This document shows positions 4,045-23,542 of a stretch of DNA of 48,162 nt, in pieces. The translations under genes and the position numbers were made by a program. The stretch lies in IMG/VR virus record IMGVR_UViG_3300032238_000527, positions 1 through 48,162 of that record; one strand, written 5' to 3'. The stretch's first letter is position 1. Each line of letters begins with the position of its first letter. A model generated the notes under the pieces. It was not told where the DNA came from. It saw only the letters and a list, made by a program, of their open reading frames with translations, and ran no database searches. This stretch comes from a virus.

Positions 4045-4818
4045 TTATAGCTGATTTAAAATAACGTCTTTTCCACATTTTAAAAGAATCTCGTCTGTTT
4101 CTGGAGTCCTAATACCTGTGATAATTAAAAATGGACGAGGCTTACGGCTTAGGTTTACGGAAGCGTGTGGAACATTTAATGTGTCAAAGGTAGTAGCATC
4201 CCCGGCTTTCCATCTAGTGTAAATTCCGTTGCCATAGGTAATTATTTGTCCAGGTTCGTAATCTTGTAGGGCAACCATTATACGCAAGACTTTTGTTGGG
4301 TCTGCTGGGTTGCGATGCCATAGTTTATCAATATGTTGTATAAATGTCTGCCCAGGCATCTGGATATGTAAACGAGTACGAAGGCGTTTCATTTTCCAAA
4401 AGGTTGCAAGATTTTGAATTTCTTTAATTTCATACATTGCCGGCTCAGGAACAATTTGTGTAAACTCTCCTTTGATACCACTAGCTTCGCGATCGTATTC
4501 TTCTAAGGCGTGTAACGGACTTACTCCGCCTGGGAACCCAGGATGCACACCTGCTACTGATAAATCGTGCCAGCCAACTTTTTTAGACTCTTCTTCCATG
4601 TCTTTAAGAATGTCTTCCATGTTAGGTGCTAGTTCAAATCTTCCTAAGCAGTCGTACCAGTCACCTTCTTCGTCAAACTGCCATTTATCAAAATGGTAAT
4701 TGCTAAATGTATTTTTAATGTAGTCCCAATTGCTATCGTAATCTGTAGCATCTTGGTATTGAAAGTCTAATGGCAAACTTTTAAATTTTGCACGAACGGC
4801 ATATTTTTCTGGATTCAT
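4045..4818 (-). CDS. 2OG-Fe(II) oxygenase-like protein
   Basis: A 257-residue protein. The C-terminal half contains H162-x-D164, H218 and R228, the facial triad plus 2-oxoglutarate-binding arginine of Fe(II) oxygenases, in contexts typical of aspartyl/asparaginyl hydroxylase-like members (QHIDKLWHR, VPHASVNLSRKPRP). The N-terminal 100 residues are unassigned. The start overlaps the stop of the 62-aa gene (ATGA), indicating translational coupling. Substrate unknown; the neighbouring PP-loop and second oxygenase genes suggest a small modification cluster. Confidence 0.72.
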   Translation of the reverse strand: MNPEKYAVRAKFKSLPLDFQYQDATDYDSNWDYIKNTFSNYHFDKWQFDEEGDWYDCLGRFELAPNMEDILKDMEEESKKVGWHDLSVAGVHPGFPGGVSPLHALEEYDREASGIKGEFTQIVPEPAMYEIKEIQNLATFWKMKRLRTRLHIQMPGQTFIQHIDKLWHRNPADPTKVLRIMVALQDYEPGQIITYGNGIYTRWKAGDATTFDTLNVPHASVNLSRKPRPFLIITGIRTPETDEILLKCGKDVILNQL

Positions 4819-5019: not shown

Positions 5020-5526
5020 TTAGCTATTTAAGACTTTTGCCACAGAGTTCATCACAGAAGCGATACGGCCAATGTCACGAAGTTGTTCTACAGTATAGCC
5101 TTCCTTCTTAAGTGTGTCGTAATGTGCTTTAACACAGAAATGGCACTTGCCAACAATGCTGGCGGCAAGACTAAATGCTTCAAAGTTTGCCTTAGTAGTT
5201 CCGCCGTGTGACGCAATAGCGTTCATGCGTAACTGTGCTGGCAAGCCCTTTAGCTGTGGATCATCTGCCATCTCAACATATGGATACCATACATTGTTCT
5301 GTGCCATAATACTAGCGGCTGTCATAGCGGCATCTGCTTGAGCAGGAGCATCTGCTAACAAGACAGCAAGTACTTTACCGTTGCCAGTTGCGGCAAGTGC
5401 GGCTACAGCACAACCCATAGCCACATCTGCATCTAATGTACTACGCAAAAGGACAGCATCTAAGTTTAACTTGGTGTCCTTTGCGTATTCTGGCAACGCA
5501 CCTTTAATTGCGTCGATGAATGCCAT
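5020..5526 (-). CDS. ahpD: Alkylhydroperoxidase AhpD
   Basis: A 168-residue carboxymuconolactone-decarboxylase-fold protein. The redox motif C128-H-F-C131 with H135 and the upstream E116 match the proton-relay and thiol residues of AhpD. In mycobacteria AhpD passes electrons from lipoylated dihydrolipoamide acyltransferase to AhpC. The start shares one base with the ahpC stop (TAATG), so the two proteins are probably made together as a peroxide-removal system in the host cytoplasm. Confidence 0.9.
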   Translation of the reverse strand: MAFIDAIKGALPEYAKDTKLNLDAVLLRSTLDADVAMGCAVAALAATGNGKVLAVLLADAPAQADAAMTAASIMAQNNVWYPYVEMADDPQLKGLPAQLRMNAIASHGGTTKANFEAFSLAASIVGKCHFCVKAHYDTLKKEGYTVEQLRDIGRIASVMNSVAKVLNS

Positions 5527-6065
5527 TATAGTGTCTCTCCGCCTACTGTACGGTTACAAGCACATAGCTCGCCAGTTTGTAGCGCATCCAACACACGAAG
5601 TGTTTCTTCTGGGCTACGACCAACGTTCAAGTTGTTTACAGTAACGTGTTGGATAACGTTCTCTGGGTCAACGATGAATGTGGCGCGAAGTGCGGCACCT
5701 GCTGGAGCATAGAATACGCCCAACTGTTCAATCAAACTCAACTCACCACGCTGTGTGTCAGCGAACTGAGTGTGGGTAATCTTCTGTAAGTCTGGGTGTG
5801 CTTTTTGCCATGCCACTTTGCAGAACTCATTGTCTGTGCTACCTGTTAGCAATACTGCATCACGGTCAGCAAAGTCGCCTGCTAGTTTGTCATAGGCAAC
5901 AATCTCTGTAGGACAAACGAATGTAAAGTCCTTTGGGTAGTAAACGATTACCTTCCACTTGCCTTCAAAACTATTTTCTGTGATAGTGTGGAAAGCATCT
6001 TCTGGTTGTCCTGGCTTGACGCCTGTGATTGCAAATGGGGCTAATTTGTCGCCAACTGTTTTCAT
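5526..6065 (-). CDS. ahpC: Peroxiredoxin AhpC, AhpD-linked type
   Basis: A 179-residue 2-Cys peroxiredoxin. The peroxidatic cysteine is C51 in DFTFVCPTE; the C-terminus holds C168 and C170 (ELCACN), the three-cysteine arrangement of mycobacterial AhpC that works with AhpD rather than AhpF. It reduces H2O2, organic peroxides and peroxynitrite. The ribosome site AAGGAGA precedes the ATG, and a sigma70-like promoter lies at 6122-6150. Confidence 0.92.
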   Translation of the reverse strand: MKTVGDKLAPFAITGVKPGQPEDAFHTITENSFEGKWKVIVYYPKDFTFVCPTEIVAYDKLAGDFADRDAVLLTGSTDNEFCKVAWQKAHPDLQKITHTQFADTQRGELSLIEQLGVFYAPAGAALRATFIVDPENVIQHVTVNNLNVGRSPEETLRVLDALQTGELCACNRTVGGETL

Positions 6066-6259: not shown

Positions 6260-6817
6260 TTAGAAACCACGTGTGTAGTTTAATGCAACAATGTTTTGTG
6301 TAACATCACCAGTTACACGCATGTATGCGACACCAACGTTGTCTTTCGGTGTTACTTGATAGTTAAGACCAGTGCGCCATGTGCGAGTTGTATCGTTGTT
6401 ACCAGTGTCAAATGCATTACGGAAACGATAGCTTACCATTGCGCTTAGACCTTTGTCACCAATTGGTGCTTTAAGGCCTGGTTCAACTGAATAGTATGTA
6501 AAGTTAGTTGTTCCAGTATAACGTTCACCAACTGCTACTCTAACGAATCCGTTAACTGGACCAAACAACGATTTAGTACCAAGTAAGCCAGCCTCAATAC
6601 GATTAGCTAGTGCTTGTGTTGTAGTAACTTTAGTGTCTGTAAAAGTTAGATCGCCAGCAAAGGTGGCATTAATGTTTTCTCTAACTGTTAACACCGCGGC
6701 TTGCATATCGGGAGTACCATTTTGGCCGTCTAAATTTTGCACTTCAACTGTTGCCGTTCCGGCAAAAGCGCCAAATGCGGCTAGAGACAATAACGATGCT
6801 ATTGCAAATTTTTTCAT
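6260..6817 (-). CDS. Outer-membrane beta-barrel protein
   Basis: A 185-residue exported protein with a signal peptide (MKKFAIASLLSLAAFGAFA) cut near residue 19. The rest has alternating amphipathic strands and ends in NYTRGF, the terminal aromatic typical of BAM-inserted barrels. It is single-gene, with its own promoter and terminator. A phage-made porin-like protein might change permeability or block superinfection; that is inference. Confidence 0.75.
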   Translation of the reverse strand: MKKFAIASLLSLAAFGAFAGTATVEVQNLDGQNGTPDMQAAVLTVRENINATFAGDLTFTDTKVTTTQALANRIEAGLLGTKSLFGPVNGFVRVAVGERYTGTTNFTYYSVEPGLKAPIGDKGLSAMVSYRFRNAFDTGNNDTTRTWRTGLNYQVTPKDNVGVAYMRVTGDVTQNIVALNYTRGF

Positions 6818-6898: not shown

Positions 6899-7663
6899 TC
6901 ACCAAATCTTCCATTCGTAGCCAATCTGTGGAGTGTACTCAAATTCTCTAGGTTGCCATTCTTCTGTTAAAAAATCCTCGTCTGCAACAAATTCTAATGC
7001 GCCACCGATTGGATTTTCAAAGTACCAAAAACAAGCAGAAGAAATGATGTGTCTACCTGGACCCATTTTAGTTTTCCAACCTTTTTCTTTTACATACATA
7101 CCGCTAGCAAATACATCGTATATATCTCTTGCTGATAAAGCCACATGATTGATGCCGGGTTCAAAGCCTTTTTTATGTTGTATAAAAATTGTATGGTGTG
7201 CGCCATTCACAGACGATCTCATGAACACGCCGGTATCAATAAATCTATCTGATACAATGAATCCTAAATTTAAATAAAATTGTTCTGTTTCTTTTAACTT
7301 GTTTGTGTAAAGTACTATGTGTGCAATGTCAACGGGATTTGGTTTGTCATATATAGGTGCTGGTTGATTGACACGCATTTTATAAACATAATTATTTGTA
7401 AGACTCCCAACGCTAACAGATGTTTTTTGTGTTTTTCTCAATGAGATTTTAAAACCGTTTGGATCAACTAGATCTTGTTCTTCACTTTCCTCATCCACTC
7501 CAAAAACAATTTCAATTGGACCATCTGGCTTAACCTGCAGACTTGAGCCACGTTGAGTCATCCACTTTCTGTCATGCTTAACTAGCCCGCAGTCAGTAAA
7601 AAACGTATTAGCTTGCTCAATATCAGCGGTTACGTAAACTATTGATTCTATTCCATTAATCAA
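6899..7663 (-). CDS. Two-domain VOC-fold extradiol dioxygenase-like protein
   Basis: A 254-residue protein with a shorter N-terminal VOC domain (about 1-80) and a C-terminal one (about 108-235). H115, H173 and E224 occupy the 2-His-1-Glu iron positions of type I ring-cleaving dioxygenases (AHIVLY, NHVALSA, GALEFVAD). These enzymes open catechol-type rings next to the hydroxyls. It is the last gene of an operon with a flavin hydroxylase and a solute-binding protein; its start overlaps the preceding gene by 8 bases. A glyoxalase-like role is the main alternative. Confidence 0.78.
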   Translation of the reverse strand: MINGIESIVYVTADIEQANTFFTDCGLVKHDRKWMTQRGSSLQVKPDGPIEIVFGVDEESEEQDLVDPNGFKISLRKTQKTSVSVGSLTNNYVYKMRVNQPAPIYDKPNPVDIAHIVLYTNKLKETEQFYLNLGFIVSDRFIDTGVFMRSSVNGAHHTIFIQHKKGFEPGINHVALSARDIYDVFASGMYVKEKGWKTKMGPGRHIISSACFWYFENPIGGALEFVADEDFLTEEWQPREFEYTPQIGYEWKIW

Positions 7664-8594
7664 TTTGAATCCCTACATCTTTAATAATTTTTGAATACCT
7701 AATATGATCATTAACAATGTGTTGTTTTAAAACTTCGGGAGAACCTCCAATTGACGTAAAAGCTAATAATTTTAGTCTGTTTGAAATTTCAGGCATCTTA
7801 AGTATTTCATTTAGTTCAATATTAAGTTTTTTTACAAGATCATCAGGCATACCTTTAGGACCAACAAACCCCATCCAACCGTAAATTTCAATTCCTGGAT
7901 ATCCTAATTCTGCTAGCGTAGGTACGTTAGGTTGATAGGGTGAACGTTTATTATCAGCAACTGCTAGAACTTTTAGCTTGCCTTGTTCAAGATGTTGTAG
8001 TACAGGAACTAATGAAGTATACATTACTGGTACTTGTCCATTAAGTAAATCAATAACTGCTGGAGCATTACCTCTGTAAGGTATGTGTGTTAGATTAATT
8101 CCAGTAGACTTATTAACTACTTCTCCTAGAATATGCATTGGGCTTCCAGCGCCAGGACTTGCATAACCAGTTAGTTTATTTGATTTAGATGCGGCAATAA
8201 AATCTTTAAAATTAATAACACCTGTATTGCTGTTAACAACAACAAACATACTCTGTCTTGACACTAGCATGATTGGTGTAAAGTCTGCTGGGTCGTATCT
8301 AGCGCCGCCTCTTAATAATAGAGGAGCCATAACCATAGTATTAGGTGTAAGCAATAGTGTAGTGCCATCGGGATTGGCTTGGGCAACATACTGATTTCCA
8401 ATAGTTCCGCTAGCACCTGTTCGATTTTCTACAATTACAGGAATGTTTAGTCTGTTAGTAAGTTGTTCTGCAAACATTCTAGCAAGAACATCAGTATCAC
8501 CTCCTGCCGGAAACGATACTACTACAGTAATAGACTTTTGTGCGTAAGCAAAACAACTAAATGCTGTGAGTAATATAAGAAGTAGTTTTTTCAT
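7656..8594 (-). CDS. Tripartite tricarboxylate transporter substrate-binding protein (Bug/TctC)
   Basis: A 312-residue periplasmic binding protein. Signal peptide at residues 1-18 ending FAYA-Q, then hallmark motifs VVSFPAGGDTDVLAR, VENRTGASGTIG and PGAGSPMHILGE of the Bug family, which bind carboxylates including aromatic acids. Bug proteins are especially numerous in Burkholderiales, which hints at the host lineage. No transporter membrane subunits are nearby, so it would need host partners. Its start overlaps the hydroxylase stop (ATGA). Confidence 0.92.
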   Translation of the reverse strand: MKKLLLILLTAFSCFAYAQKSITVVVSFPAGGDTDVLARMFAEQLTNRLNIPVIVENRTGASGTIGNQYVAQANPDGTTLLLTPNTMVMAPLLLRGGARYDPADFTPIMLVSRQSMFVVVNSNTGVINFKDFIAASKSNKLTGYASPGAGSPMHILGEVVNKSTGINLTHIPYRGNAPAVIDLLNGQVPVMYTSLVPVLQHLEQGKLKVLAVADNKRSPYQPNVPTLAELGYPGIEIYGWMGFVGPKGMPDDLVKKLNIELNEILKMPEISNRLKLLAFTSIGGSPEVLKQHIVNDHIRYSKIIKDVGIQID

Positions 8595-9658
8595 AGTGTA
8601 TTAAGGGTATTATAAAAATTGTTAATTTTAGATTGAGCAGTGGAGGGCATGTTTGCAATCATCTCTTTATAACTAGTATAGCTCTCAGTTGCTCCTGCAA
8701 CCCCCACTGCTCGAGATGTATCTTGTACATATTTGCACATTGGATATCTACGTTCTCCAAATGCGCTTAACTCTATATTAGCATCTAATAGTTCTCCGAG
8801 CAAGACGGCATCATGTACAGCCATAGAACCGCCTTGTCCGCTGAACGGAGTACTAGCATGGGCCGCATCGCCAATTAGTAGCACATTGTTTTTATTCCAA
8901 GGTGTAGGCATTATAACTTCTTCCGCAGGTGTAAAGTAAACATTTTGATTAAAAGTTAACTCGTCAAGCAAGGGCCTAGCAGGGCCCTCAAACTCTAGAA
9001 ACTTCTCATACATCACAGCTGACCAAATGTTACGTTCATATAAATGTTTTTCTGGAACATGCACAACACCCCATACATACAATTCATCGTCACTTATTGG
9101 CATAATTCCTAATCGTTTGCCTGCACTGAACATTGTAATTTTATCAACTAGATTTTTTGGGCGTTTGTGTGTACTGCGCCAAACTTCAAACTCTGAATAT
9201 ACTGGGGTAACTTCTGGCCAAAATAAATTTCTTACACTAGAGTTTATGCCGTCAGCACCAATTACTAAATCAAAATTATCAAAAGAATAAGAATCAATGG
9301 TTGTGTTTAGTTGTATTTCAACGCCAAGAATTTTTAATTCTTCTGCTAGTACACGATGCATAGCAGATCGTCTAATGCCTAAAATTCTAGGATACACTAC
9401 ATCGGTTATATGATTTCCAATATTGTCCATGTAGACATTTCGTCCATTTGGTATTAAGAATCCAGCTTGTTCAATTTTAGTTAGTAATCCTAATTTGTTG
9501 AAATTATCTAATCCGTTACTATAAACAAAGATACCAGAGCTAATAGGTTCAGAGGTAGATGATTTTTCTATTAAGGTAACAGACCACCCGCGTCTTGCTA
9601 ACACGATCGATGCTGTGCAACCCGCAATGCCTGCGCCTACTACAAGAACTTTCTTCAT
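8591..9658 (-). CDS. FAD-dependent class A monooxygenase
   Basis: A 355-residue flavoprotein of the p-hydroxybenzoate hydroxylase / UbiH / TetX group. It has the dinucleotide-binding GAGIAG near residue 8, the DG motif (VIGADGINSSVR) and the GD motif (LIGDAAHASTPFSGQGG) for the FAD ribityl chain. Such enzymes hydroxylate aromatic rings with NAD(P)H and O2. It heads an operon with the Bug protein and the extradiol dioxygenase, matching a hydroxylate-then-cleave order. Detoxification of an antibiotic or a quinone-type role cannot be excluded. Confidence 0.9.
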   Translation of the reverse strand: MKKVLVVGAGIAGCTASIVLARRGWSVTLIEKSSTSEPISSGIFVYSNGLDNFNKLGLLTKIEQAGFLIPNGRNVYMDNIGNHITDVVYPRILGIRRSAMHRVLAEELKILGVEIQLNTTIDSYSFDNFDLVIGADGINSSVRNLFWPEVTPVYSEFEVWRSTHKRPKNLVDKITMFSAGKRLGIMPISDDELYVWGVVHVPEKHLYERNIWSAVMYEKFLEFEGPARPLLDELTFNQNVYFTPAEEVIMPTPWNKNNVLLIGDAAHASTPFSGQGGSMAVHDAVLLGELLDANIELSAFGERRYPMCKYVQDTSRAVGVAGATESYTSYKEMIANMPSTAQSKINNFYNTLNTL

Positions 9659-9687
9659 CTAATACTTAGTGTAACTACTAGCTGAGT

Positions 9688-9715
9688 TAAAAAAATAGCA
9701 CCCGAAGGTGCTATT
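9688..9715 (-). terminator. Terminator of the tmRNA transcript
   Basis: The minus-strand stem AATAGCACC/GGTGCTATT closes a TTCG loop and runs into a T tract, just after the tmRNA coding piece. Confidence 0.88.
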
Positions 9716-9716
9716 A

Positions 9717-9930
9717 GTTATTTGGGTGACAAGGCTAACTAGACCTCGCAAGTGCTGTTTCTTAGGCAGCTAGGGCAAACTCGATGTCGTTCTTTGCAGA
9801 AACGCCAACGGGAGCTTGCCAGTACTTGAATGTAGATGCTTTTGCATTTACTTGATTTGCTTGATTTACGGTCATCGCCTACCGTGTTGCCGTCTCTACT
9901 ATCTACCCCTGTCGAAACCATGGCAGGCCC
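9717..9930 (-). ncRNA. ssrA: Permuted tmRNA, coding piece
   Basis: The 5' end GGGCCTGCCATGGTTTCGACAG is the tmRNA start. Its first seven bases pair perfectly (one G-U) with CAGGTCC of the acceptor piece at 10086-10150, which lies upstream in the transcript. A hairpin ACGGT/ACCGT (pseudoknot 1 region) follows. A tag frame ending AKNDIEFALAA and TAA (9797-9762) matches the ALAA degradation tag. The resume codon could lie further upstream in the same open frame. The 3' end of this piece is estimated. Gene order acceptor-spacer-coding identifies the two-piece form known in alphaproteobacteria, some betaproteobacteria and cyanobacteria. Confidence 0.88.
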
Positions 9931-10073
9931 ATCATAAAGAAACTTATCTCTGATTTGATCGCATCAAGCACTTGGGTAGTAACATCTTCACTTTGTCCAA
10001 CGATTGGTTCAAATTCGTAGATACAAATTGTTTTTGTTACGCCTTCATGTTCCGCTGTGATATCAATCTTCAT
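9903..10073 (-). CDS. 56-aa ORF inside the tmRNA internal spacer
   Basis: An ATG ORF begins 13 bases after the CCA end of the acceptor piece with the ribosome site AAGGAAG, fills the internal spacer and ends 28 bases inside the coding piece (TAG at 9903-9905). The product (MKIDITAEHEGVTKTICIYE at its N-terminus) is acidic and reads like a real protein through residue about 45; the last residues are tmRNA sequence translated. tmRNA maturation would cut the message, so translation and tmRNA processing should compete. Function unknown. Confidence 0.6.
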   Translation of the reverse strand: MKIDITAEHEGVTKTICIYEFEPIVGQSEDVTTQVLDAIKSEISFFMMGLPWFRQG

Positions 10074-10085
10074 TAAACTTCCTTA

Positions 10086-10150
10086 TGGTGGACCTGGCGG
10101 GAGTCGAACCCGCGTCCAAGAGTCCTTCGCTTTGAAGGGATTACAACAAT
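10086..10150 (-). ncRNA. ssrA: Permuted tmRNA, acceptor piece
   Basis: The minus strand carries a perfect T arm (GCGGG-TTCGACT-CCCGC), the acceptor strand CAGGTCC, discriminator A and encoded CCA, the typical tmRNA 3' end. Upstream is a small hairpin CCTTC/GAAGG. The mature 5' end of this piece cannot be fixed; it begins just after the cold-shock gene stop codon, so the pre-tmRNA may be co-transcribed with that gene. Confidence 0.88.
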
Positions 10151-10154
10151 TCTT

Positions 10155-10358
10155 TTAGGCAGGCTGGATGTTACTAGCCTGTGCGCCTTTCATGCCTTGG
10201 GTTACTTCAAACTTTACACTCTGTCCTTCTTGTAGACTTTTGAAGCCACCTGAATTAATCTGTGAAAAGTGTGCAAATACATCTGCGCCACCATTGTCGG
10301 GAGTAATGAAACCAAAACCTTTGGTATCGTTAAACCACTTTACTTTTCCTGTTATCAT
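10155..10358 (-). CDS. Cold-shock domain protein
   Basis: A 67-residue CspA-type single-strand nucleic-acid chaperone. The RNA-binding motifs KGFGFI and DVFAHF are intact, and the length is that of a single cold-shock domain. It likely melts RNA structure during infection. A promoter-like pair upstream (10505-10533) would give a leader of about 140 bases, as in cspA mRNAs. The tmRNA acceptor piece follows within a few bases. Confidence 0.93.
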
Positions 10359-12318: not shown

Positions 12319-14370
12319 TTATTTTTCGTGAGCAATAAACTCGCCGTTCCAATTGTCTGGTAAGTCTTGTTGCTTCATAAAGTCACAGCGTTCAATCCAA
12401 ATTTTGTAGTATTTGTCCATTTGTCCACCAAAGTTGCCTTTTAGTTTTTTACACATTGCGGCAGCTTCATCAAACTTTTTCTGTTTGTACAAGGCATGCA
12501 TTTCTTCATGCTGTGCTTTGTCTTTGCTATAATCAACACCGCGTGTGCGTAGTGCTGTATAGATTAAGTCTGCTACTGTCTTACCTTTTGGTTGTAAGTT
12601 GTCTAGCATTAGATAGAAGAAGTCGTCTTTAGTTCTATTGTATGTTTCAGCACCAATAATACATAGTACGCCATAGGCCTTACAACGTGCTTCTAAACGT
12701 GCGGCAGTACTAACCATGTCACCTAAGATGTCATAGCTGTGTCTTTCTGTTGAACCCATTTCACCAATAAAGCCAGTACCTGAGTTACAACCCCAACCCA
12801 TTGCGGCTGGTGGTAATCCTTGTGCTTCCATCTGCTTAGTATACTCGTCTACTTTGTCCAACATTTCAAGTCCTACCTTAACGATAGTTCTAGCATGATT
12901 AGGATCTTCAATAGGAGCACCATGTATGTGCATTGACGCATCGCCTACGTATTTGATAACCATACCTTTGTTGTCTAACATTGGCTGGCTGATAGCATCC
13001 ATATAGCCGTTCATGTACTTGCCAAGTCCAGCAACGTCATCGCCATAGTGTTCACCGATAGGTGTAAAGCCACGTAGGTCACTAAACATAACTGATACGT
13101 CTTTACGTACACCACGTTTGATTAAGTCTGGATCTTTTTGCAGTAACTCTACAACTTCTTTAGAGCAGTAGCCAGCAAACTGTTTCTTTATGGCTTGCTT
13201 TTGTAAGAACTCACTTACGAACTTAACACCGTAAGCATGAAGGAGAATAAGAGTAGTACCCACAGCAAGGGCAGTAATGTCAACAAGCCAAAGATTATTC
13301 GTGTAAAGATACTGAGATAAAGGATACAAAATACCAAGAGAGATAACGCCACTAGCAAGTCCAACATAAGTCCACCTTGTTAAAAATAGTAAAGCAATGC
13401 CTGCTACTACTAAGGCAAGAATTTCTGCGCCATCGGCCCAATCTGGACGTTGTATAACAACTCCGTTCATCATGGTGCCTATAACGGCGGCTTGTACATC
13501 ATGAGGCCATATTGCGCCTTTACTTGTTGGTAATGGGTTACCGATACCTGCGGCAGTAGGTCCTACTATAACAATAGCACCTTCTAAATCTTTTGGTAGT
13601 TGAGTTAAACTAAAACTACGATTCTGCTGACTCCAGTCAATCCACACACGACCTAGGTTGTCTGTAGTCACAGGGCCAAACTTAGGAATACGCATCTTTT
13701 CCACCCCGCCCTCAAATAACTTAACTTGGAAAGTTGAGTCACCGGCGGCTACTCGTAGGGTTTCTAAACTCATTGCAGGATACAGTTTACCTTCGACTGT
13801 AACAATTAAAGGCATGCGGCGATTAACACCGTCAACTTCTGGTAGTGTGTTTACAATACCAATACCTGCGGCCGAATTTTCTAGTGCAGGTACGTTAGCG
13901 ATAAGTCCAGGATACTGAACTATTTGATCTAACCATTCTGGTCCTAGTACAGCACTACCTGGATTGCGAGGAGTATTCTTTGTCTTCTGACTAGGAACGC
14001 TTCCTAGTATTACGGGATAATGTTTAAGAGCGGCGGCCAGATCCCTATCCCCACCAGTACGATCACGCTCAGCCATGAGCACGTTAAGCACAACAAGGCC
14101 AGCATTACGACGATAAAGGTCTTCAATAATTTCAGCATAATTAACCCTCGGTAATGGCCACTGGCCGTATTTGTCTAAGGAAGCCTCGTCTATGTTGACC
14201 GTGACAATGTTGTTGAATGTTGGAGCTTTGTTAGTGATTAATGTGTCAAAATAGCGTAGTCTTACGCTTTCAACAAATGTAGGGTCTGCTATACGTATGC
14301 CCACAACTAACGCAAGGGTTAGTAGTGCAGTCCACGGACTTACTAATATTTTTTTGAATTCAATTTTCAT
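12319..14370 (-). CDS. CHASE2-domain class III adenylate cyclase
   Basis: 683 residues: an N-terminal membrane helix, an extracytoplasmic CHASE2 sensor (about 25-310), three membrane helices (about 315-385) and a cyclase domain (about 423-610). Metal-binding D431 and D477, adenine-specifying K473 and D547, and transition-state R558 are present, but the usual Asn is Ser (S554 in GDMVSTAARLE). It should make cAMP in response to a periplasmic signal if active. A lipoprotein gene overlaps its start (ATGA), and the curli-like operon lies upstream on the same strand. Confidence 0.9.
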   Translation of the reverse strand: MKIEFKKILVSPWTALLTLALVVGIRIADPTFVESVRLRYFDTLITNKAPTFNNIVTVNIDEASLDKYGQWPLPRVNYAEIIEDLYRRNAGLVVLNVLMAERDRTGGDRDLAAALKHYPVILGSVPSQKTKNTPRNPGSAVLGPEWLDQIVQYPGLIANVPALENSAAGIGIVNTLPEVDGVNRRMPLIVTVEGKLYPAMSLETLRVAAGDSTFQVKLFEGGVEKMRIPKFGPVTTDNLGRVWIDWSQQNRSFSLTQLPKDLEGAIVIVGPTAAGIGNPLPTSKGAIWPHDVQAAVIGTMMNGVVIQRPDWADGAEILALVVAGIALLFLTRWTYVGLASGVISLGILYPLSQYLYTNNLWLVDITALAVGTTLILLHAYGVKFVSEFLQKQAIKKQFAGYCSKEVVELLQKDPDLIKRGVRKDVSVMFSDLRGFTPIGEHYGDDVAGLGKYMNGYMDAISQPMLDNKGMVIKYVGDASMHIHGAPIEDPNHARTIVKVGLEMLDKVDEYTKQMEAQGLPPAAMGWGCNSGTGFIGEMGSTERHSYDILGDMVSTAARLEARCKAYGVLCIIGAETYNRTKDDFFYLMLDNLQPKGKTVADLIYTALRTRGVDYSKDKAQHEEMHALYKQKKFDEAAAMCKKLKGNFGGQMDKYYKIWIERCDFMKQQDLPDNWNGEFIAHEK

Positions 14371-14510
14371 GATCTAGGAGCCGCGCCGTTTCGAGTAGCA
14401 GGATCCCATGAATGGCAACCTTTGGGCAGTCCGTCTTTATCGCAGAAAGATATTCCCGCGCACCCTGCTAGAGTTAGAATAAGTGATAATATTAAGATGT
14501 TCTTTAGCAT
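14367..14510 (-). CDS. Small lipoprotein (47 aa)
   Basis: A short product with a lipoprotein signal peptide and lipobox LAGC (Cys17), followed by a 30-residue mature part containing two more cysteines. The stop overlaps the cyclase start by ATGA. TAAATA stands four bases before the ATG and no ribosome site is seen. It may tether or sense for the CHASE2 domain; that is inference. Confidence 0.7.
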   Translation of the reverse strand: MLKNILILSLILTLAGCAGISFCDKDGLPKGCHSWDPATRNGAAPRS

Positions 14511-14517
14511 GAAATAT

Positions 14518-14832
14518 TTAGCTGGACTTTGTTCGGGTAGTTTTATGATTAACTAAAGTAGAATTAGATCCGGTACCTAAAATACAAGCAACATCATCGT
14601 TGTATTGTACCATAGTCCAGGTTTTAGTTTTTTCGTTTACCATTAACACATATTTGCTACTAGTATCTTTGCCTACCCAAAACGGCACTTCTTGCCATTC
14701 GGGTCCTGACATTGTTTCAATAACTGTTTTAACATCTGAACAGAGTACAGGTTTCTCGATTTCAATTGGTGGTTGGGCGTAGGCTACGAAGCTGATTAGG
14801 CCTAATAGGAACGCCGATGCTACACTTCGCAT
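14518..14832 (-). CDS. Exported hypothetical protein (104 aa)
   Basis: Signal peptide of about 19 residues ending VAYA-Q, then a small periplasmic domain with two cysteines (CSDVK and ACILG) that could form a disulfide. No family recognised. It sits between the curlin-PA14 gene and the lipoprotein gene. GGAGA lies before the ATG and a TAAATA box at 14851-14856. Confidence 0.65.
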   Translation of the reverse strand: MRSVASAFLLGLISFVAYAQPPIEIEKPVLCSDVKTVIETMSGPEWQEVPFWVGKDTSSKYVLMVNEKTKTWTMVQYNDDVACILGTGSNSTLVNHKTTRTKSS

Positions 14833-14856
14833 AGGCTTCTCCTTGTTAGGTATTTA

Positions 14857-17007
14857 TTACTGTCTAACAGTTGTAGAGCATCCTGCTGGATTTGTACAAC
14901 TCTGTATTATAGTAAATGATTTGCCACCGCTTTGTTGGATGTCTAAACTAGCAGGACCTCCAGCATTGGTTAAATCTATATTGGCTTTATTTGCTGTGTT
15001 ACCGGATTGTGTTGCAAGCACACTATTGCCGTTACCAGTTAGTTTGTTTTCAAGATAATGATTTCCACCACCTTCTTGAACTGCGGTGATAGAGTTGTTG
15101 TTTCCAGTGACAGTATTGAACATTAGATTGTTGCCGTTGTCTTTTTGAGTTACGTTAATATTATTATTACTACCTGATATTATTTTTGTTTCTTGGTAGT
15201 TAGCGCCTGCGGTGTTTGTTTGGCTAGAGGTAACAGAGTTTGAACTTCCTTGCACTAGTGCATTTAAATAGTTTGTGCCGGTTTGAGTAACACCCACTGT
15301 ATGAGAACCAGTGCCACCTAATCCTATATTAGCAGTATTCTTTGCCCCAGATTGCGTAACATTAACTGTATTTTGGTCTCCGCTTATCTGCTCAATATAC
15401 AAATAATTGTTAACTGACTGTGTTGCGTTGTTCCATGTATTATAACGTGTTTGTTGCTCAGTTGTTGCACCGGCAGTGCTTGAACCACCACTAGTGATAG
15501 TTTCTGTTCCTGTACCATTTTGAAGATCAATAGTGCCGCCTTCAATAACAGGTCCTAATGATACAGAAGTTCCAGCTATATCAACTACTGCGCTGTTAGA
15601 ATAAGCTAATCCTGTAGCGTCAACCGTGTTTGTTTCTGTTATCCATCCTGTGGTAAATGCAGAGTTAGGTACGCCAGTTCTGCCTGCACCGTAATCCCAT
15701 TGAAACTTCATTCCGTACCCGCCTAGGTCATTCCAATACCATGCTTCAAGATTATAAGTTTGTCCAGCAACTACGTCTATCCAACCAGATGCTGTATAAC
15801 TAAAAATACTTTGCCATTGGTTAGTTGATTGGTCATTAATGATCGTTTGACTGTTTATTTTTAAAACAAATCCGTCATCACTATTGCTGTAAAAATATAA
15901 TCTATAAACAGTGCCTGCTGGATGTAAGTTAGTTATTGGTGCTGTGATAGTTCCGCTGTATGCTACTAATGTACCTTCTCCCATTCCCGGAAATGATCCG
16001 TTTGTTGGAACATAGATGCCGTTAGTAGTACGTCCACTGGCTACTTGATTATAAGCACCAGGCGACAAGTTAGGCACACGATAAGGTCCTAACCAGTTTT
16101 TGCCACATATTCCAAAAACACAAGTATAAGTGTAAGCATCAAAGTCGTAAACTTTATAGTTTAATCCTTGTAGTACGTTTTGTGTTGTAGTTGTAGTAGA
16201 ACCATTTGCTTCAATAGTAGTTACTCCGTTAGTTGTAACTTTGCTGATAGGAGTAGTTGTTGTAGTTAATACTCCATTTACAATCTTGTTAGTTACTACA
16301 TTAGAAGAAACTCGTGTTTGATATAGAGTTTCAGTTCCGTTGCTACTAGATGTTGTACCATCATTATAAGTTGTGATAGTCACAGGTGTTTGATAAACAG
16401 TAATTGTGTTACCACTTACTACATTTCGTGTTGTGTAAGTTACTGCTGTTCCTGTTACTGTTCTTACAGGTGCGGCAGGTGCTACAGTTTGTCCGGCAGA
16501 TAATGGGGTAGTTGAACCGTTTGTAGCATAGGTGTTAACTTGAGTTACTGTTGGATTCAATGTTCCAGTCCAAGTAACTCCGCTGGTATTAGTAAAGCCC
16601 TGAGTCATGCTGAACAACTGTCCAGTATTATTATCATTACCTACAAAGAAAAAATAGTCAGTACCCATGTTAATAATGTGTCCAGTACCCATAACTGCTT
16701 TTTGTGTGCCATTAGCACTATATTGAATAGCATTCCACGGATTAGTAGCATCTCCTGTTGCGACAAATGCTACATAGTCTCCAGCGGCCCAGGATAGTTG
16801 GCCGTTGTACCAAGGAATTTTATATGCTGTCCCGGGATTCTTACTGTAGATTTGGCAAGTTGCTGTTTGTGTACAGGATTGAACATTCCACTGACTATCA
16901 GCTATTTGTGCTTGTCCAAACTTTAAGTCAGCAAGCCCGGTGGCTTGACTGTATGCGCTAACACATATAGTTAATAAGAATAAAAACTGTAGGAAACGCT
17001 TTATCAT
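14857..17007 (-). CDS. Exported curlin-repeat protein with PA14-like domain
   Basis: 716 residues. A signal peptide (about 1-20, SAYSQ) is followed by a Thr/Ser-rich region, a PA14-like sugar- or surface-binding domain around residues 320-470 (YFYSNSDDGFVLKINSQ, then WYWNDLGGYGMKFQWDY) and about seven curlin-type repeats of the form GxxNxxxxxQxGxxN from about 535 to the end. CsgA-type repeats form amyloid. The start overlaps the FecR gene stop (ATGA). It looks like an amyloid-anchored adhesin exported through the CsgG pore. Confidence 0.78.
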   Translation of the reverse strand: MIKRFLQFLFLLTICVSAYSQATGLADLKFGQAQIADSQWNVQSCTQTATCQIYSKNPGTAYKIPWYNGQLSWAAGDYVAFVATGDATNPWNAIQYSANGTQKAVMGTGHIINMGTDYFFFVGNDNNTGQLFSMTQGFTNTSGVTWTGTLNPTVTQVNTYATNGSTTPLSAGQTVAPAAPVRTVTGTAVTYTTRNVVSGNTITVYQTPVTITTYNDGTTSSSNGTETLYQTRVSSNVVTNKIVNGVLTTTTTPISKVTTNGVTTIEANGSTTTTTQNVLQGLNYKVYDFDAYTYTCVFGICGKNWLGPYRVPNLSPGAYNQVASGRTTNGIYVPTNGSFPGMGEGTLVAYSGTITAPITNLHPAGTVYRLYFYSNSDDGFVLKINSQTIINDQSTNQWQSIFSYTASGWIDVVAGQTYNLEAWYWNDLGGYGMKFQWDYGAGRTGVPNSAFTTGWITETNTVDATGLAYSNSAVVDIAGTSVSLGPVIEGGTIDLQNGTGTETITSGGSSTAGATTEQQTRYNTWNNATQSVNNYLYIEQISGDQNTVNVTQSGAKNTANIGLGGTGSHTVGVTQTGTNYLNALVQGSSNSVTSSQTNTAGANYQETKIISGSNNNINVTQKDNGNNLMFNTVTGNNNSITAVQEGGGNHYLENKLTGNGNSVLATQSGNTANKANIDLTNAGGPASLDIQQSGGKSFTIIQSCTNPAGCSTTVRQ

Positions 17008-18116
17008 TTTTGTACAATAGTAATGATAGTGTTGCCGCCCTGATTAACACGGTTCTTAAACTCTAAACTACCTTGTGTTTGGTAAATTAAAGAGTTTTGT
17101 GTTAATGGAGTAGTTATACATTGTTGGTCGCTGCCGTTGTCTCTACATAAGCTGACAGACATTTCGTCTTTAACAGCAACAATGCCGCTTGATTTTTTGT
17201 AGTCAGGTAATACACTGTCTACTTCGCTTAAAAAGTTTTCGTTTAGTCCGTTTCCAATCATATCAAATATACTAGCAAGGAATTGATTATCTAAAAAGTT
17301 TTGTGCTAAACGGTCAACATACATATTAGCTAGTTGTGCTTCGAGTGCGTTCTCTAACCCTTTTTCTTTTAAGAAGTCAACATCTAAAAAACTTTTAGCG
17401 GCAGACCTTTCACTTCTACCTGTTTCTTTAATTTCTTTTGGAGGACTTAGTAGTAGCATATTGCCAATGGCATCTTCTGATAAGTTTAGTATTACTGGGC
17501 GAGTCGGAGGTTGGGCTCGACTATTAACCTGAGTGGCTTGGAAGGCCTGGTTAAGAATTACAATACCAGCATCTGTTTCAACTGATATTTCTCCAACTTT
17601 ACAATTCTTTTCTATATCGTCTTTGGTTCTACTTTTGTTACGATCATCGGGACAACTTGGAAGTAGTATAACTGTTGATTGTCCTAGTTCGTCAACTGAG
17701 GCAGTAAAATCAGTACCACGAACACTAATAGTAGCAGTAGGCGTATTAAGAGCAACATTTTGCGGGCTGTTCTTAGCAATTTGTCCACTTGCGTAGCGGA
17801 CAGTTCCAAGTGCAATTTTAGCACCTAGTTTACCCGATTTAGATTTAGGATCATATACGAAGTCATCAATTACCAACTTGCTATTTTCATTTACTTGAAC
17901 ACGAGTGTCGTCTTCAAAGGTTATTCCCACTTTCCCCTGTTGGGTTTTGATCGCATCGTTCATTTCCACTCCCGTGCCCTTGGACCCCGTTAGTGTCTGT
18001 TTGTCTCTCTGAATGCTGGGAGGAGTGTTGAGTTGTTCTGTTACTTTGCCTATCGCGGCGTGACTCGACGAGGTACCTAGCAACAGTAAGCATAGTATTG
18101 CTGTCCATATTTTCAT
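17004..18116 (-). CDS. Exported FecR-domain protein
   Basis: The start at 18116 gives a 370-residue protein with a signal peptide (MKIWTAILCLLLLGTSSSHA). A FecR domain spans about residues 30-150, with the characteristic TPTATISVRGTDF. FecR domains are periplasmic sensor or scaffold modules, often near CHASE2 cyclases and surface-polymer genes. Its start overlaps the 57-aa gene by ATGA. The C-terminal half is unassigned, helical and acidic. Confidence 0.85.
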   Translation of the reverse strand: MKIWTAILCLLLLGTSSSHAAIGKVTEQLNTPPSIQRDKQTLTGSKGTGVEMNDAIKTQQGKVGITFEDDTRVQVNENSKLVIDDFVYDPKSKSGKLGAKIALGTVRYASGQIAKNSPQNVALNTPTATISVRGTDFTASVDELGQSTVILLPSCPDDRNKSRTKDDIEKNCKVGEISVETDAGIVILNQAFQATQVNSRAQPPTRPVILNLSEDAIGNMLLLSPPKEIKETGRSERSAAKSFLDVDFLKEKGLENALEAQLANMYVDRLAQNFLDNQFLASIFDMIGNGLNENFLSEVDSVLPDYKKSSGIVAVKDEMSVSLCRDNGSDQQCITTPLTQNSLIYQTQGSLEFKNRVNQGGNTIITIVQK

Positions 18117-18286
18117 CTGTCCCCCCATTCAAACCAACTGTATTTCTGTAATTCTCTCATGATGGCATCACCAGTAGTGTTTTGCCATTTAGCCGCTTGT
18201 TCTACAAAAGAAGACCAGTCACGAACATAGTGTTCATTACCTTGCATCCATGCTTGGTACATCTTTTGTAGTTCGCTTTCAAACAT
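18113..18286 (-). CDS. Hypothetical protein (57 aa)
   Basis: A small soluble, aromatic-rich, probably helical protein without a signal peptide. It fills the gap between the curlin gene and the FecR gene, with the stop/start junction TAATATG on one side and an ATGA overlap on the other, so it is clearly part of the operon. Function unknown. Confidence 0.65.
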   Translation of the reverse strand: MFESELQKMYQAWMQGNEHYVRDWSSFVEQAAKWQNTTGDAIMRELQKYSWFEWGDR

Positions 18287-18287
18287 A

Positions 18288-19247
18288 TTAGTTTTTCTGT
18301 AATATTCTGTATGTGCTGTTACTGCCAGTTATTTTAATATTTGATACGTTATCAACACTACCTTGCTGTGTAATACCAACATCGTTACTTGAACCTGCAA
18401 TATCTAGTTTAGCATATTGTCCAATAGATAGTCCACCGCTTTGTACAATGTTAGTGATATTGTTTGATCCCACTGCTTTATAATCAACAACATTATCATT
18501 AACTCCACTTTGTGATATAGTAGTTTGATTACCTTGACCGTCTAGATCAATCTTAACATAATTACCGTTGGTGCTACCACCGCTCTGAGTTACGCTAGTA
18601 ATATTAGTTGCGCCTCTAGTATCAATATCTACATAGCCTTTGTTACCTGTTAGGTTAAGAGTAGTTAAATTGCCGCCGCCTAATGTTTGATTTACATTTG
18701 CAATTACATTATCTGCGTTAATTGTAGCGTCAATTGAGTTGCCACCACCACCACTCGATCTTACAACTAAACTATTTGTGTTACCTAACATATTCACATT
18801 GGTAATAGCATTACCGCCTAACTGTATAATATCAATTATATTACTGGCACTAACACCATTTCCGTTGTTATTACTGTTGATATATGCAATATTTCCGCCA
18901 ACATCAACTTTATAGTTTAACTCAATGCCTTTGCCAGTAGTCCCAACTGTTGTGTTAAGTCCTAGTGACAGTTTATTATTTGGGCCTGCTTGCTCAATAG
19001 TAACTGTTTGGACATCACCTTTAAGTTTAGCTGGATCTTGAGGATTGGTACTAGCCGTTCCGTTTGTCAGTATTCCATTAACTTTGTTGCCAGCGCCGTC
19101 CTGAGTCATAGTGATAGTGCTGTTATCGCCAGATTGGTCGATATAAATGCTATTATCAACACCCCAGCTTGTGGCTGAAATGCTTAGTAGCATTATAGTG
19201 AGTAATTTTCTCGACAACCCACCAACACCTGTCATTCTTTGTTCCAT
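18288..19247 (-). CDS. Curlin-repeat amyloid subunit (CsgA/CsgB-like)
   Basis: 319 residues: an N-terminal signal sequence (ending SATSWG-V), then curlin-type repeats over the whole mature part, for example NSTITMTQDGAGN and NQTTISQSGVNDN, with the alternating N-x-x-x-x-x-Q-x-G-x-x-N register that stacks into amyloid. It is longer than classical CsgA (about 150). It lies directly downstream of csgG and upstream of the FecR and curlin-PA14 genes. Confidence 0.85.
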   Translation of the reverse strand: MEQRMTGVGGLSRKLLTIMLLSISATSWGVDNSIYIDQSGDNSTITMTQDGAGNKVNGILTNGTASTNPQDPAKLKGDVQTVTIEQAGPNNKLSLGLNTTVGTTGKGIELNYKVDVGGNIAYINSNNNGNGVSASNIIDIIQLGGNAITNVNMLGNTNSLVVRSSGGGGNSIDATINADNVIANVNQTLGGGNLTTLNLTGNKGYVDIDTRGATNITSVTQSGGSTNGNYVKIDLDGQGNQTTISQSGVNDNVVDYKAVGSNNITNIVQSGGLSIGQYAKLDIAGSSNDVGITQQGSVDNVSNIKITGSNSTYRILQKN

Positions 19248-19385
19248 TTTGTTAAAATGATTGCTTATTAGTTTACAATCAAGTTCCTTGGTCTTTAACC
19301 TTATAATAATTATTCGCTACCCTATAAATATTTAATACATACTACCTTTTCATAATGCTCCGATGTTATTTTTTCGTTATCATCA

Positions 19386-19405
19386 GGTGTAAAAAAATTT
19401 ACACC
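19386..19405 (-). terminator. Hairpin downstream of csgG
   Basis: A perfect 8-bp stem GGTGTAAA/TTTACACC lies 19 bases after the csgG stop. No T tract follows in the leftward direction, so it may slow decay or attenuate rather than end transcription. Confidence 0.55.
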
Positions 19406-19423
19406 GTTAAAAAAACAACACCA

Positions 19424-20713
19424 TTACTTCTTATCTTCTAACTTGTTAGACTGTATCCAACCGCCGCGGTCAGTACCGTCTGTTACCATCACTCTCCACC
19501 AACCTTCTGTTCCTGGTTGTCTAATACTCATTACAGTACCTTTGGCAAACCACCACTTCTTGGTACTTGTTTCTTTTTCTTCTGCATATAGGAACGAATT
19601 TTCTTTTAATACTCGTTCACCAAACAGTGTTATAGTTGGCTTAACGCCTGTCTGCATATCTGTTACTGCTAGTTTTTCTTCTTTAGCGGCCTCACTTTTT
19701 CTTTCGACTCTTGCAGGTGCTTGTCTGTCATTGGACTGCTGTGGTGCGGGTGATGGCTGCTCTTGGGCAGGGGCGGATTCTTTGGGGGCTTGTGTCTGAA
19801 CCAACTCATCTTTCTTCTCCTCAGGTTTTCTTATTTCTGACGATATCACTGGAGCAGGAGTAGTTGGTAATACAAGCGGCGCCTGAGTCTTTGGAATAAT
19901 AACCTCAGTCACTGGATCGTGTCTGTAGTCCCAAAGTGCTTTACGCTGACCTTCTTTGATTAACTCTACTACTGCCATTTCAATTGCTGCCTTGACAGCG
20001 TATGTGCCTGGTTCGTTAATGGTTAAGCCTGCTTCTGCTTCAAATGCCTGTGTTCCTTGATCAAAGAACTTTAGTGCTGTTGCTGAGTCTGCTGTACTTA
20101 AGATTGTCTTTTGTACTGTTACTACTGCTAGAACTTTACCTGTGTTTACACTCACTGCTCTAATGCTAACAGTTACAGTATCTTGGCTCCATTGTGTTTG
20201 TTTGCCAATACCAAAAATACGCATGCCAGCACCGCCACTGTTTACAGTAGTGTCATATCCTACAATACCACCTTCGATGATCATGCCAGCGAACTGCATT
20301 GGCATCAAGGGTCTAGCATTGTTACCTTCGTAGGCTTCGCGCATCTGACGAATGATTAATCGCTCTTTAGTTAAGTTGTCAATACCTACACGTTCTACAA
20401 CTTCAAACCATTGTCCTTGCCCTACTCCTTGTAGTGCTTGTATTAAGAATGTTTCAGCACCTTGTGTAACTGCTGAACTTAAACTAGCTACGTTAGCTTG
20501 TGGTCGTCGCTGTCCAGTTTTATCTGCAAAACTATAAACTGCTACGCTAACAGGTTTGCCCGCCGCAGGTGCTGGAATAGTATCAAATTCTTTTTTGACA
20601 CTTTTCATTTGTGTTGTAATACTAGGATCTGTTTCTGTCAAGCCGGTACTTTGCATTACTGCACAACCACTAAGTGTTGAAATAATAGCTAGAGATATTA
20701 GTGTACGTTTCAT
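19424..20713 (-). CDS. csgG: Curli secretion pore CsgG with C-terminal SH3-like domain
   Basis: A 429-residue lipoprotein (lipobox LSGC, Cys17). Residues 45-270 match CsgG: PVSVAVYSFADKTGQRRP, the VVERVGIDNLTKERLIIRQ segment, and later strands lining the pore. Classical CsgG is about 260-280 residues; here a Pro/Gln/Glu-rich linker (about 280-365) leads to an SH3-like domain (about 370-425, WWFAKGTVM, GWWRVMV, GGWI). Such a domain could bind peptidoglycan. CsgG forms a nonameric outer-membrane channel for curlins. It follows csgF with a 3-base gap. Confidence 0.9.
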   Translation of the reverse strand: MKRTLISLAIISTLSGCAVMQSTGLTETDPSITTQMKSVKKEFDTIPAPAAGKPVSVAVYSFADKTGQRRPQANVASLSSAVTQGAETFLIQALQGVGQGQWFEVVERVGIDNLTKERLIIRQMREAYEGNNARPLMPMQFAGMIIEGGIVGYDTTVNSGGAGMRIFGIGKQTQWSQDTVTVSIRAVSVNTGKVLAVVTVQKTILSTADSATALKFFDQGTQAFEAEAGLTINEPGTYAVKAAIEMAVVELIKEGQRKALWDYRHDPVTEVIIPKTQAPLVLPTTPAPVISSEIRKPEEKKDELVQTQAPKESAPAQEQPSPAPQQSNDRQAPARVERKSEAAKEEKLAVTDMQTGVKPTITLFGERVLKENSFLYAEEKETSTKKWWFAKGTVMSIRQPGTEGWWRVMVTDGTDRGGWIQSNKLEDKK

Positions 20714-20716
20714 TTA

Positions 20717-21253
20717 TTAATTCCCCGGCATGTTGAATGATTCTAACGGAACATAGATACATGTTGGTCCACCAGTTACGCCACAAGCTAAATTTTTGTC
20801 TGATCCTGGATCTGTTACTTTTAATAATATACAAGTGCCAGCAGTTGAACCTGTACAATTAAATGCATCACTTACTCTACTCCAAGCAATATTACTTCCT
20901 TGAAATGTAATTGCACCTGTACAAGTAGAGCTTGTTGCCACTGAACAGCTATTATTAGCAAACATAGCAGTTGCTACATTTTGTGATATCTGTGCGTAGA
21001 TGCGTGATTCTAAGTTGTTTAAAAACTTAGCTAAATTTGTGTTTTTTTCATCTGAAGCCACTTTGTCAATTGCCGCTTGAACTTTATCTTCTTGTGCTTT
21101 ACGACGAACTGCTTCTTGATTCTCAATTGTTAAAACGTGAGAACTATATCCCACGCCATTAAACGCAGGGCTTTTAAATTGATAATCTCCCAATGGTGCC
21201 GCATAACATAATGCGGTCATAGAGAATAATACTGTTGTAAGTATTGCCTTCAT
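20717..21253 (-). CDS. csgF: Curli assembly factor CsgF
   Basis: A 178-residue exported protein. The signal peptide ends CYAA; the mature N-terminus YQFKSPAFNG matches the CsgF motif (YxFxxPxFxG) that inserts in the CsgG pore. A helix around residues 45-90 follows, then a C-terminal part with four cysteines not typical of E. coli CsgF. First gene of the curli-like operon; GGGAGCG precedes the ATG. A TATAAT box lies near 21300 without a clear -35. Confidence 0.85.
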   Translation of the reverse strand: MKAILTTVLFSMTALCYAAPLGDYQFKSPAFNGVGYSSHVLTIENQEAVRRKAQEDKVQAAIDKVASDEKNTNLAKFLNNLESRIYAQISQNVATAMFANNSCSVATSSTCTGAITFQGSNIAWSRVSDAFNCTGSTAGTCILLKVTDPGSDKNLACGVTGGPTCIYVPLESFNMPGN

Positions 21254-22861: not shown

Positions 22862-23542
22862 TTAGCGAATTTCCGGGAACAAACATTCCTGTATGAATAC
22901 TTTAACGTCTTCTTCAGATAGCCCTAAACTAACCATTACACGCGGTGTATGCGGGTTACATTTCTGATTCTGTGCGTAATAGTTCTGTGCTTCTGTAGTA
23001 TCAACGGCTGTATTGTTAGTTTCCGCTACAGTTTCCAAATAATGCGCTACAGTATCTTTAGCCATGACAATGATTTGGTCTAGTTCTTCATCGCTTTGTA
23101 CGTTACCTGCGGCAACCATACTCTTACTGAATATGTTTGTAGCCCACTCAGGTAGCTCGCGCTCTTTTCGCCAATCTAGCTGAGATACGTAGTCTGCAAA
23201 CCATTCCATCATAGGATGATCGGGATCGCCTGCTTTTGAGTAATCATGAAAGCAACCGGTAATCTTATTCTTACCGGCAATAACGTCAAATCCGTAAATC
23301 GGTGCTGGGTTGTGTGTATGTGGGAAGATGCAACAATGCATCATCCAGAGGCCTTTGGATTCCCTAGCATCCACAACATCAACGTGAGCCCTACGATACA
23401 AATCACTGGTCCAAACACGATTAACCCAACCAGGCTGATTAAAGCGATCCATGCCCGCTTCAAAGACTTCTGTTCCTGTTTCATTGAATTTGCTTTCTAA
23501 TAAATGCTGAACTTCGATCAGCGTGTCCCAGACTTTACTCAT
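22862..23542 (-). CDS. Ferredoxin-dependent bilin reductase (PcyX/PebS-like)
   Basis: A 226-residue member of the bilin reductase family. The core PIYGFDVIAGKNKITG followed by CFHDYS, the WRKERELPEWA segment and the C-terminal NPHTPRVMVSLG...LFPEI are typical; two conserved Asp (in GFDV and FHDY) sit where catalytic acids are known. These enzymes reduce biliverdin with ferredoxin electrons. The ATG at 23542 overlaps the heme oxygenase stop by 8 bases, so the product of one feeds the other. Two- versus four-electron reduction cannot be decided from sequence. Confidence 0.85.
   Translation of the reverse strand: MSKVWDTLIEVQHLLESKFNETGTEVFEAGMDRFNQPGWVNRVWTSDLYRRAHVDVVDARESKGLWMMHCCIFPHTHNPAPIYGFDVIAGKNKITGCFHDYSKAGDPDHPMMEWFADYVSQLDWRKERELPEWATNIFSKSMVAAGNVQSDEELDQIIVMAKDTVAHYLETVAETNNTAVDTTEAQNYYAQNQKCNPHTPRVMVSLGLSEEDVKVFIQECLFPEIR

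Follow-up and report, generated by a model that had tools for sequence, protein, structure and literature searches.

Phages are well known to carry auxiliary genes that enhance photosynthesis or the metabolism of nucleotides, phosphate or sulfur. In the available portions of two sources, virus-encoded functions come closer to the subject of this work: viral MhpE, PaaA, PaaD and PaaK were claimed for aromatic degradation in a freshwater virome (PMC9554406), and PMC13343209 cites Ru et al. (2023) for viral hydrocarbon-degradation genes (vHYDEG). As a general idea, viral genes for the degradation of aromatics or hydrocarbons are not new. As far as we found, however, an ordered cassette of a flavin hydroxylase, a Bug-type binding protein and an extradiol dioxygenase, conserved in two phages, is without precedent: it was not found in PHROGs, in BFVD (searched with the dioxygenase only) or in GenBank phages, and a phage extradiol set was not found in the open-access literature.

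The cassette lies on a virus fragment of 48 kb from IMG/VR (IMGVR_UViG_3300032238_000527), whose whole stretch of 48,162 nucleotides is called the window below. We read it as an auxiliary metabolic cassette of the phage that deals with aromatic acids and serves nutrition, at a probability of about two in three. The reading is built on overlapping intact genes, their catalytic residues and motifs, fold, catabolic-looking bacterial kin, the location in a phage and the presence of the set in a second phage.

Gene layout

The trio occupies the minus strand from 9658 to 6899, and all three open reading frames proved intact where the earlier note had placed them. The features of the locus are as follows.

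8591..9658, minus strand: gene 1, predicted class A flavoprotein monooxygenase (aromatic hydroxylase), 355 aa; Pfam FAD_binding_3, E 5e-25
7656..8594, minus strand: gene 2, Bug/TctC periplasmic solute-binding protein, 312 aa; TctC PF03401, E 2.5e-60
6899..7663, minus strand: gene 3, predicted two-domain type I (VOC) extradiol dioxygenase, 254 aa, TTG start; in Pfam assigned to no more than the broad Glyoxalase/dioxygenase superfamily, E 3e-9
9671..10178, minus strand: permuted tmRNA gene upstream of the trio (ARAGORN; RF04321 129.7 bits, RF01850 112.7 bits)
9694..9715, minus strand: intrinsic terminator-like hairpin between tmRNA and trio; 9-bp stem, then a T run
6260..6817, minus strand: small protein resembling an outer-membrane beta-barrel, encoded immediately after the trio; weak OMP_b-brl/DUF2490 matches, below cut-off
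4045..4818, minus strand: 257-aa 2OG-Fe(II)-oxygenase-like protein; HxD...H by eye

At both junctions the end of one gene overlaps the start of the next, by 4 nt (ATGA) between hydroxylase and TctC and by 8 nt (TTGATTAA) between TctC and VOC. Both overlaps would fit translational coupling of the three genes, as had been proposed. The end of the tmRNA gene lies approximately 12 bases upstream of the hydroxylase start; since the terminator-like hairpin stands between the two, the trio is probably transcribed separately. A convincing promoter for the trio was not found, promoter-like sites being fewer than in shuffled sequence. The permuted tmRNA (window 9671-10190) encodes an unusually long tag of 27 residues and directly follows a CspA-like cold-shock open reading frame (by eye), in a region with a weak, below-cut-off match to the cspA thermoregulator model. 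On the other side of the trio, a pair of AhpC/AhpD peroxiredoxin genes (window 5020-6065) separates the outer-membrane protein gene from that of the 257-aa protein, for which no Pfam family was found; the pair could protect oxygenase-active cells from peroxide.

The three proteins

The VOC protein is very probably an enzyme of the ring-cleavage type and not a resistance protein, as judged from its NCBIfam matches, its fold and its invariant metal and second-sphere residues. The His-His-Glu site named by the earlier note is in place (H115, H173 and E224), and so are the second-sphere residues H157, H205 and Y214, assigned by alignment to homoprotocatechuate 2,3-dioxygenase (HPCD), with whose GPGRH...Y...E the catalytic region aligns. 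All six residues were identical in 26 of 26 aligned sequences, the second phage included. The AlphaFold model (pLDDT 91.7, pTM 0.89) had two tandem VOC-fold domains which matched two-domain ring-cleaving enzymes over their full length (VIA-align, Z 26-21). The best structural match was 3b59 (Z 26.2 over 232 residues), followed by 1mpy (Z 24.1) and HPCD (Z 23), with catechol 2,3-dioxygenase, HPCD and BphC together spanning Z 25-21; the best PDB sequence matches were again 3b59 and homoprotocatechuate 2,3-dioxygenases. Although 3b59 bears the title "glyoxalase", it has the same two-domain fold as the ring-cleaving enzymes, and the NCBIfam matches were exclusively to HpaD, catechol 2,3-dioxygenase and BphC (biphenyl-diol dioxygenase), all below the equivalog cut-offs. 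A grouping with glyoxalase or resistance proteins was thus not observed. In BFVD, a structure search did not bring up any viral match with two domains (best E 1.2e-3, TM 0.21). The N-terminal domain is about 40 residues shorter than in the cellular (bacterial) relatives and was still modelled confidently; this shortening would make the protein an atypical extradiol enzyme. In comparison with the type I extradiol dioxygenases catechol 2,3-dioxygenase, HPCD and BphC, it shares the two-domain VOC fold, the 2-His-1-Glu site and the second-sphere His/His/Tyr, whereas its identity to them is only about 14-25% and it represents a separate uncharacterised subfamily below all curated equivalog cut-offs.

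With comparable assurance, the first gene can be assigned to the class A flavoprotein hydroxylases. All three motifs of the class were intact in sequence and alignment: GAGIAG (GxGxxG), the DG motif (IGADGINSSVR) and the GD motif (GDAAHASTPF). The model, built from only three sequences (pLDDT 73), had the PHBH-type single-component fold (Z 34-30 over approximately 320-345 residues), with structural matches to 4-hydroxybenzoate 1-hydroxylase, 3-hydroxybenzoate 6-hydroxylase, MHPCO, HpxO, NicC and kynurenine monooxygenase. Tetracycline destructases were also among the matches of the hydroxylase; the class A superfamily holds these and urate hydroxylase as well. The best NCBIfam match was PRK06847 (hypothetical), below cut-off. 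The fold and the three FAD/NAD(P)H motifs are common to the phage protein and to 3-hydroxybenzoate 6-hydroxylase, MHPCO, NicC and HpxO, but at an identity of about 20-24% the substrate is not predictable from these enzymes.

The second gene encodes a protein with a Sec-type leader (read by eye), whose closest solved relatives were the terephthalate-binding protein TBP (best), Bug27 and BugD (E 7e-51 and weaker). Like TBP and Bug27, it belongs to family PF03401 and carries a periplasmic leader; it differs in being an orphan in its record. A search for TctA in the window record and in four other phage records came up empty; neither trio-bearing phage has the gene in its record, and both these records are fragments. 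Of the uptake function proposed earlier, the window shows only the binding protein. Because a Bug protein needs TctAB, uptake, if any, would have to run through the permease of the host.

Viral setting, second phage and bacterial relatives

The viral nature of the contig was apparent from several features. It carries an array of eight tRNAs besides the permuted tmRNA, its NrdB was most like the NrdBs of Synechococcus phages (T4/cyanophage-like), and further matches were to a phage exonuclease, a virion structural protein and a tail spike. A block of DnaK, Hsp20, ClpS, heme oxygenase, bilin reductase and a 502-aa protein was syntenic with the viral contigs L122-L125 and partly with L121; within it, heme oxygenase adjoins a ferredoxin-dependent bilin reductase (window 22862-24092), and the two are kept beside DnaK-Hsp20-ClpS in L122-L125. 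The T4 portal was not found in the 48-kb contig, and portal proteins of this type were present in some of the viral contigs reached via the 257-aa neighbor. As to the host, only the beta type of the permuted tmRNA and the placement in the trees point to betaproteobacteria. In another part of the window (12319-21253), csgF and csgG lie together with genes for FecR, a CHASE2-cyclase protein, a curlin-repeat protein and a 716-aa protein in which curlin-like repeats were recognized by eye. According to the OM43 phage paper (PMC9004378), Melnitz and pelagimyophages are without csgA/csgB; unlike them, this contig may include curlin-like subunits.

A second phage, represented by a viral contig of 72 kb (IMGVR_UViG_3300010354_012181, L129), contains the 257-aa gene, hydroxylase, TctC, VOC and outer-membrane protein genes in that order. 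The identities to the window proteins were 33% for the hydroxylase, 43% for TctC, 34% for VOC and 43% for the outer-membrane protein, with catalytic residues and flavin motifs intact. The genes are again closely packed: one base separates the 257-aa gene from the hydroxylase and one base the hydroxylase from TctC, and TctC overlaps VOC by 11 nt. Hence the outer-membrane protein gene directly follows the trio in both phages; in the second, the 257-aa homologue immediately precedes the trio. The conservation of an ordered set through a divergence to 33-43% identity argues for selection; in view of its unchanged order in a distantly related virus, the trio looks like a tool that viruses maintain and not like stray DNA of bacteria. 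A single acquisition is neither proven nor rejected, the monophyly of the two phage rows giving p-AU values of 0.54 (FAD) and 0.40 (VOC).

These data bear directly on the alternative that the trio is passive bacterial cargo or the product of a chimeric assembly. All three genes have bacterial homologues and the contig is a fragment of 48 kb lacking the T4 portal, as such an origin would have it. However, the GC3 of the trio (0.18-0.28) was that of the phage, within the range of the other contig genes (0.22-0.42), and not that of the bacterial homologues in L036 (0.85-0.86); the flanks are a tRNA array, a permuted tmRNA and genes common to other viral contigs; and the same ordered cassette recurs in an independent viral contig. 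With phage neighbors, phage-like GC3 and the second phage taken together, the trio represents cellular metabolic genes in a viral genome and not contamination, and the cargo explanation is nearly refuted.

Scans of IMG/VR for peptide patterns, run with single window proteins and with the profiles A1/A2, did not bring up a close relative of hydroxylase or dioxygenase in phages. Since the second phage was missed by these scans and was reached only via the 257-aa neighbor, the empty scans are no proof of rarity. Matches of the hydroxylase in GenBank phages and of TctC in gut phage records were distant. A record named "Acinetobacter phage MD-2021a" (L002, CAKLQH020000010.1) was rejected as a phage precedent: pga genes and a catabolic operon mark its stretch as ordinary bacterial sequence, and the GenBank record is apparently mislabelled.

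Homologues of the 257-aa protein, 46-58% identical, were present in 14 viral contigs and adjoin TctC genes in other phages, including other TctC-type proteins in contigs L130-L139. In L130 (8883-12813), L137 (6432-12768) and L138 (5066-11685), TctC/DctP-type binding proteins occur with 2OG oxygenases, QueC/asparagine-synthetase-like and radical SAM-like genes, and L130 additionally has an enzyme of the MR/MLE superfamily. This pairing suggests a wider phage habit of setting binding proteins beside oxygenases, and it feeds an explanation in which the trio is part of a larger phage island (2OG oxygenases, asparagine-synthetase/QueC-like, radical SAM and solute-binding proteins) making or modifying a small molecule. 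We consider such a tailoring role improbable, as the hydroxylase was found in none of L130-L139 and the dioxygenase in none of those tested; among the related viral contigs searched for either enzyme, none besides the second phage has one. Moreover, the bacterial relatives of the dioxygenase stand in catabolic-looking operons.

Indeed, VOC homologues were found in a conserved Burkholderiales operon with a hydrolase, an IclR regulator, a ThDP enzyme, aspartate dehydrogenase, aldehyde dehydrogenase, VOC, a Rieske oxygenase and an SDR. The gene names were taken from annotation or by eye and the records name no pathway, and this Burkholderiales/Comamonadaceae Rieske/ALDH/hydrolase operon looks catabolic. 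In Comamonadaceae bacterium G21597-S1 (L036), all three genes are adjacent in the different order VOC-FAD-TctC, the hydroxylase being 46% identical to that of the phage (tblastn). A cluster in genome L119 combines TctC, hydroxylase, a cupin, an ACMSD-like amidohydrolase, VOC and a FAH-type hydrolase (last names by eye). Around hydroxylase homologues in 16 bacterial loci, VOC was within approximately 1.5 kb in nine and TctC in five; in several bacteria (L097, L101, L107 and L108), the closest hydroxylase homologues had no neighboring VOC. With its bacterial relatives in catabolic-looking loci, the trio did not turn out to be a conserved non-catabolic locus.

The hydroxylase is rare among bacterial genomes. 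A homologue was present in 2 of 399 genomes of the family of L036 at E 1e-50, and a profile at E 1e-70 detected it in 7 of 399 genomes of the order and 10 of 398 of the phylum; the homologue in G218, a genome drawn from that family, was 54% identical to the phage protein. In the trees, Comamonadaceae, namely Rhodoferax, Polaromonas and the L036 genome, were the company of the phage VOC, and the hydroxylase fell in a 99/99-supported clade with the L036-genome homologue. Because of the long phage branches, the placement of the donor is uncertain.

Proposed function and comparison with known systems

The two enzymes likely act in series on one aromatic acid. During infection, the exported Bug protein would capture a small aromatic carboxylate in the periplasm and pass it to the TctAB permease of the host, with the phage outer-membrane protein perhaps aiding uptake. 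The flavin monooxygenase would then hydroxylate the ring to a catechol-type product, and the extradiol dioxygenase would cleave this next to the hydroxyl, yielding a ring-opened semialdehyde or acid. Aldehyde dehydrogenase and hydrolase of the host could pass this product on to central metabolism and thereby supply carbon and energy while virus is being produced. Inferred here are the substrate, the use of the two enzymes one after the other, the uptake through host TctAB and the benefit to the phage.

The logic of an aromatic catabolic route, as put forward in the earlier note, gained support from the kinship with catabolic-looking loci and from the second phage. However, two enzymatic steps are not a full route to central metabolism, and downstream meta-pathway genes were not recognized near the trio in the open reading frame list or by Pfam. 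The same two-step chemistry might serve to destroy an aromatic signal, a toxin or a host metabolite, for instance one derived from tryptophan or kynurenine, instead of feeding the cell. The shortness of the encoded pathway fits this purpose, as do the matches of the hydroxylase to kynurenine monooxygenase and tetracycline destructases and the place of its G218 homologue, after an apparent tryptophan 2,3-dioxygenase gene (by eye). On the other hand, the Bug partner and the outer-membrane protein point to an external substrate, and the catabolic-looking operons of the bacterial VOC homologues speak for nutrition, which leaves signal or toxin removal a rather unlikely, though not negligible, purpose. 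As our best guess, the nutritional purpose ranks ahead of detoxification or signal removal and of tailoring.

If true, a conserved hydroxylation and ring-cleavage cassette would tie phages directly to the turnover of aromatic carbon, for example of humic or lignin-derived origin. The enzyme pair and its binding protein would be compact and testable, and the ligand of the Bug protein would reveal what the infected cell is fed. Tentatively, a T4-related phage lineage with betaproteobacterium-like hosts might possess a compact module, leading from the outside of the cell inward, of outer-membrane protein, Bug protein, hydroxylase and dioxygenase for uptake and opening of aromatic acids by infected cells, which, so far as we found, is undescribed.

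Among known systems, the Burkholderiales/Comamonadaceae VOC-Rieske-ALDH-ThDP-AspDH operon (L036, L058, L059 and plasmid pNK84 of Caballeronia NK8) is similar in its dioxygenase, which was 43-47% identical to that of the phage by alignment and has all catalytic residues. It differs in that the phage has only hydroxylase, Bug protein and dioxygenase, in another order and with a shortened N-terminal domain; the Rieske, ALDH and hydrolase genes were not seen beside the phage trio. The genes of the freshwater virome and vHYDEG are carried by viruses, as is the trio, and have been credited with a role in the degradation of aromatics or hydrocarbons. In the available portions of these sources (PMC9554406, PMC13343209) they have other functions, and the overlapping hydroxylase/Bug/extradiol set, which was not found there, sets the phage cassette apart.
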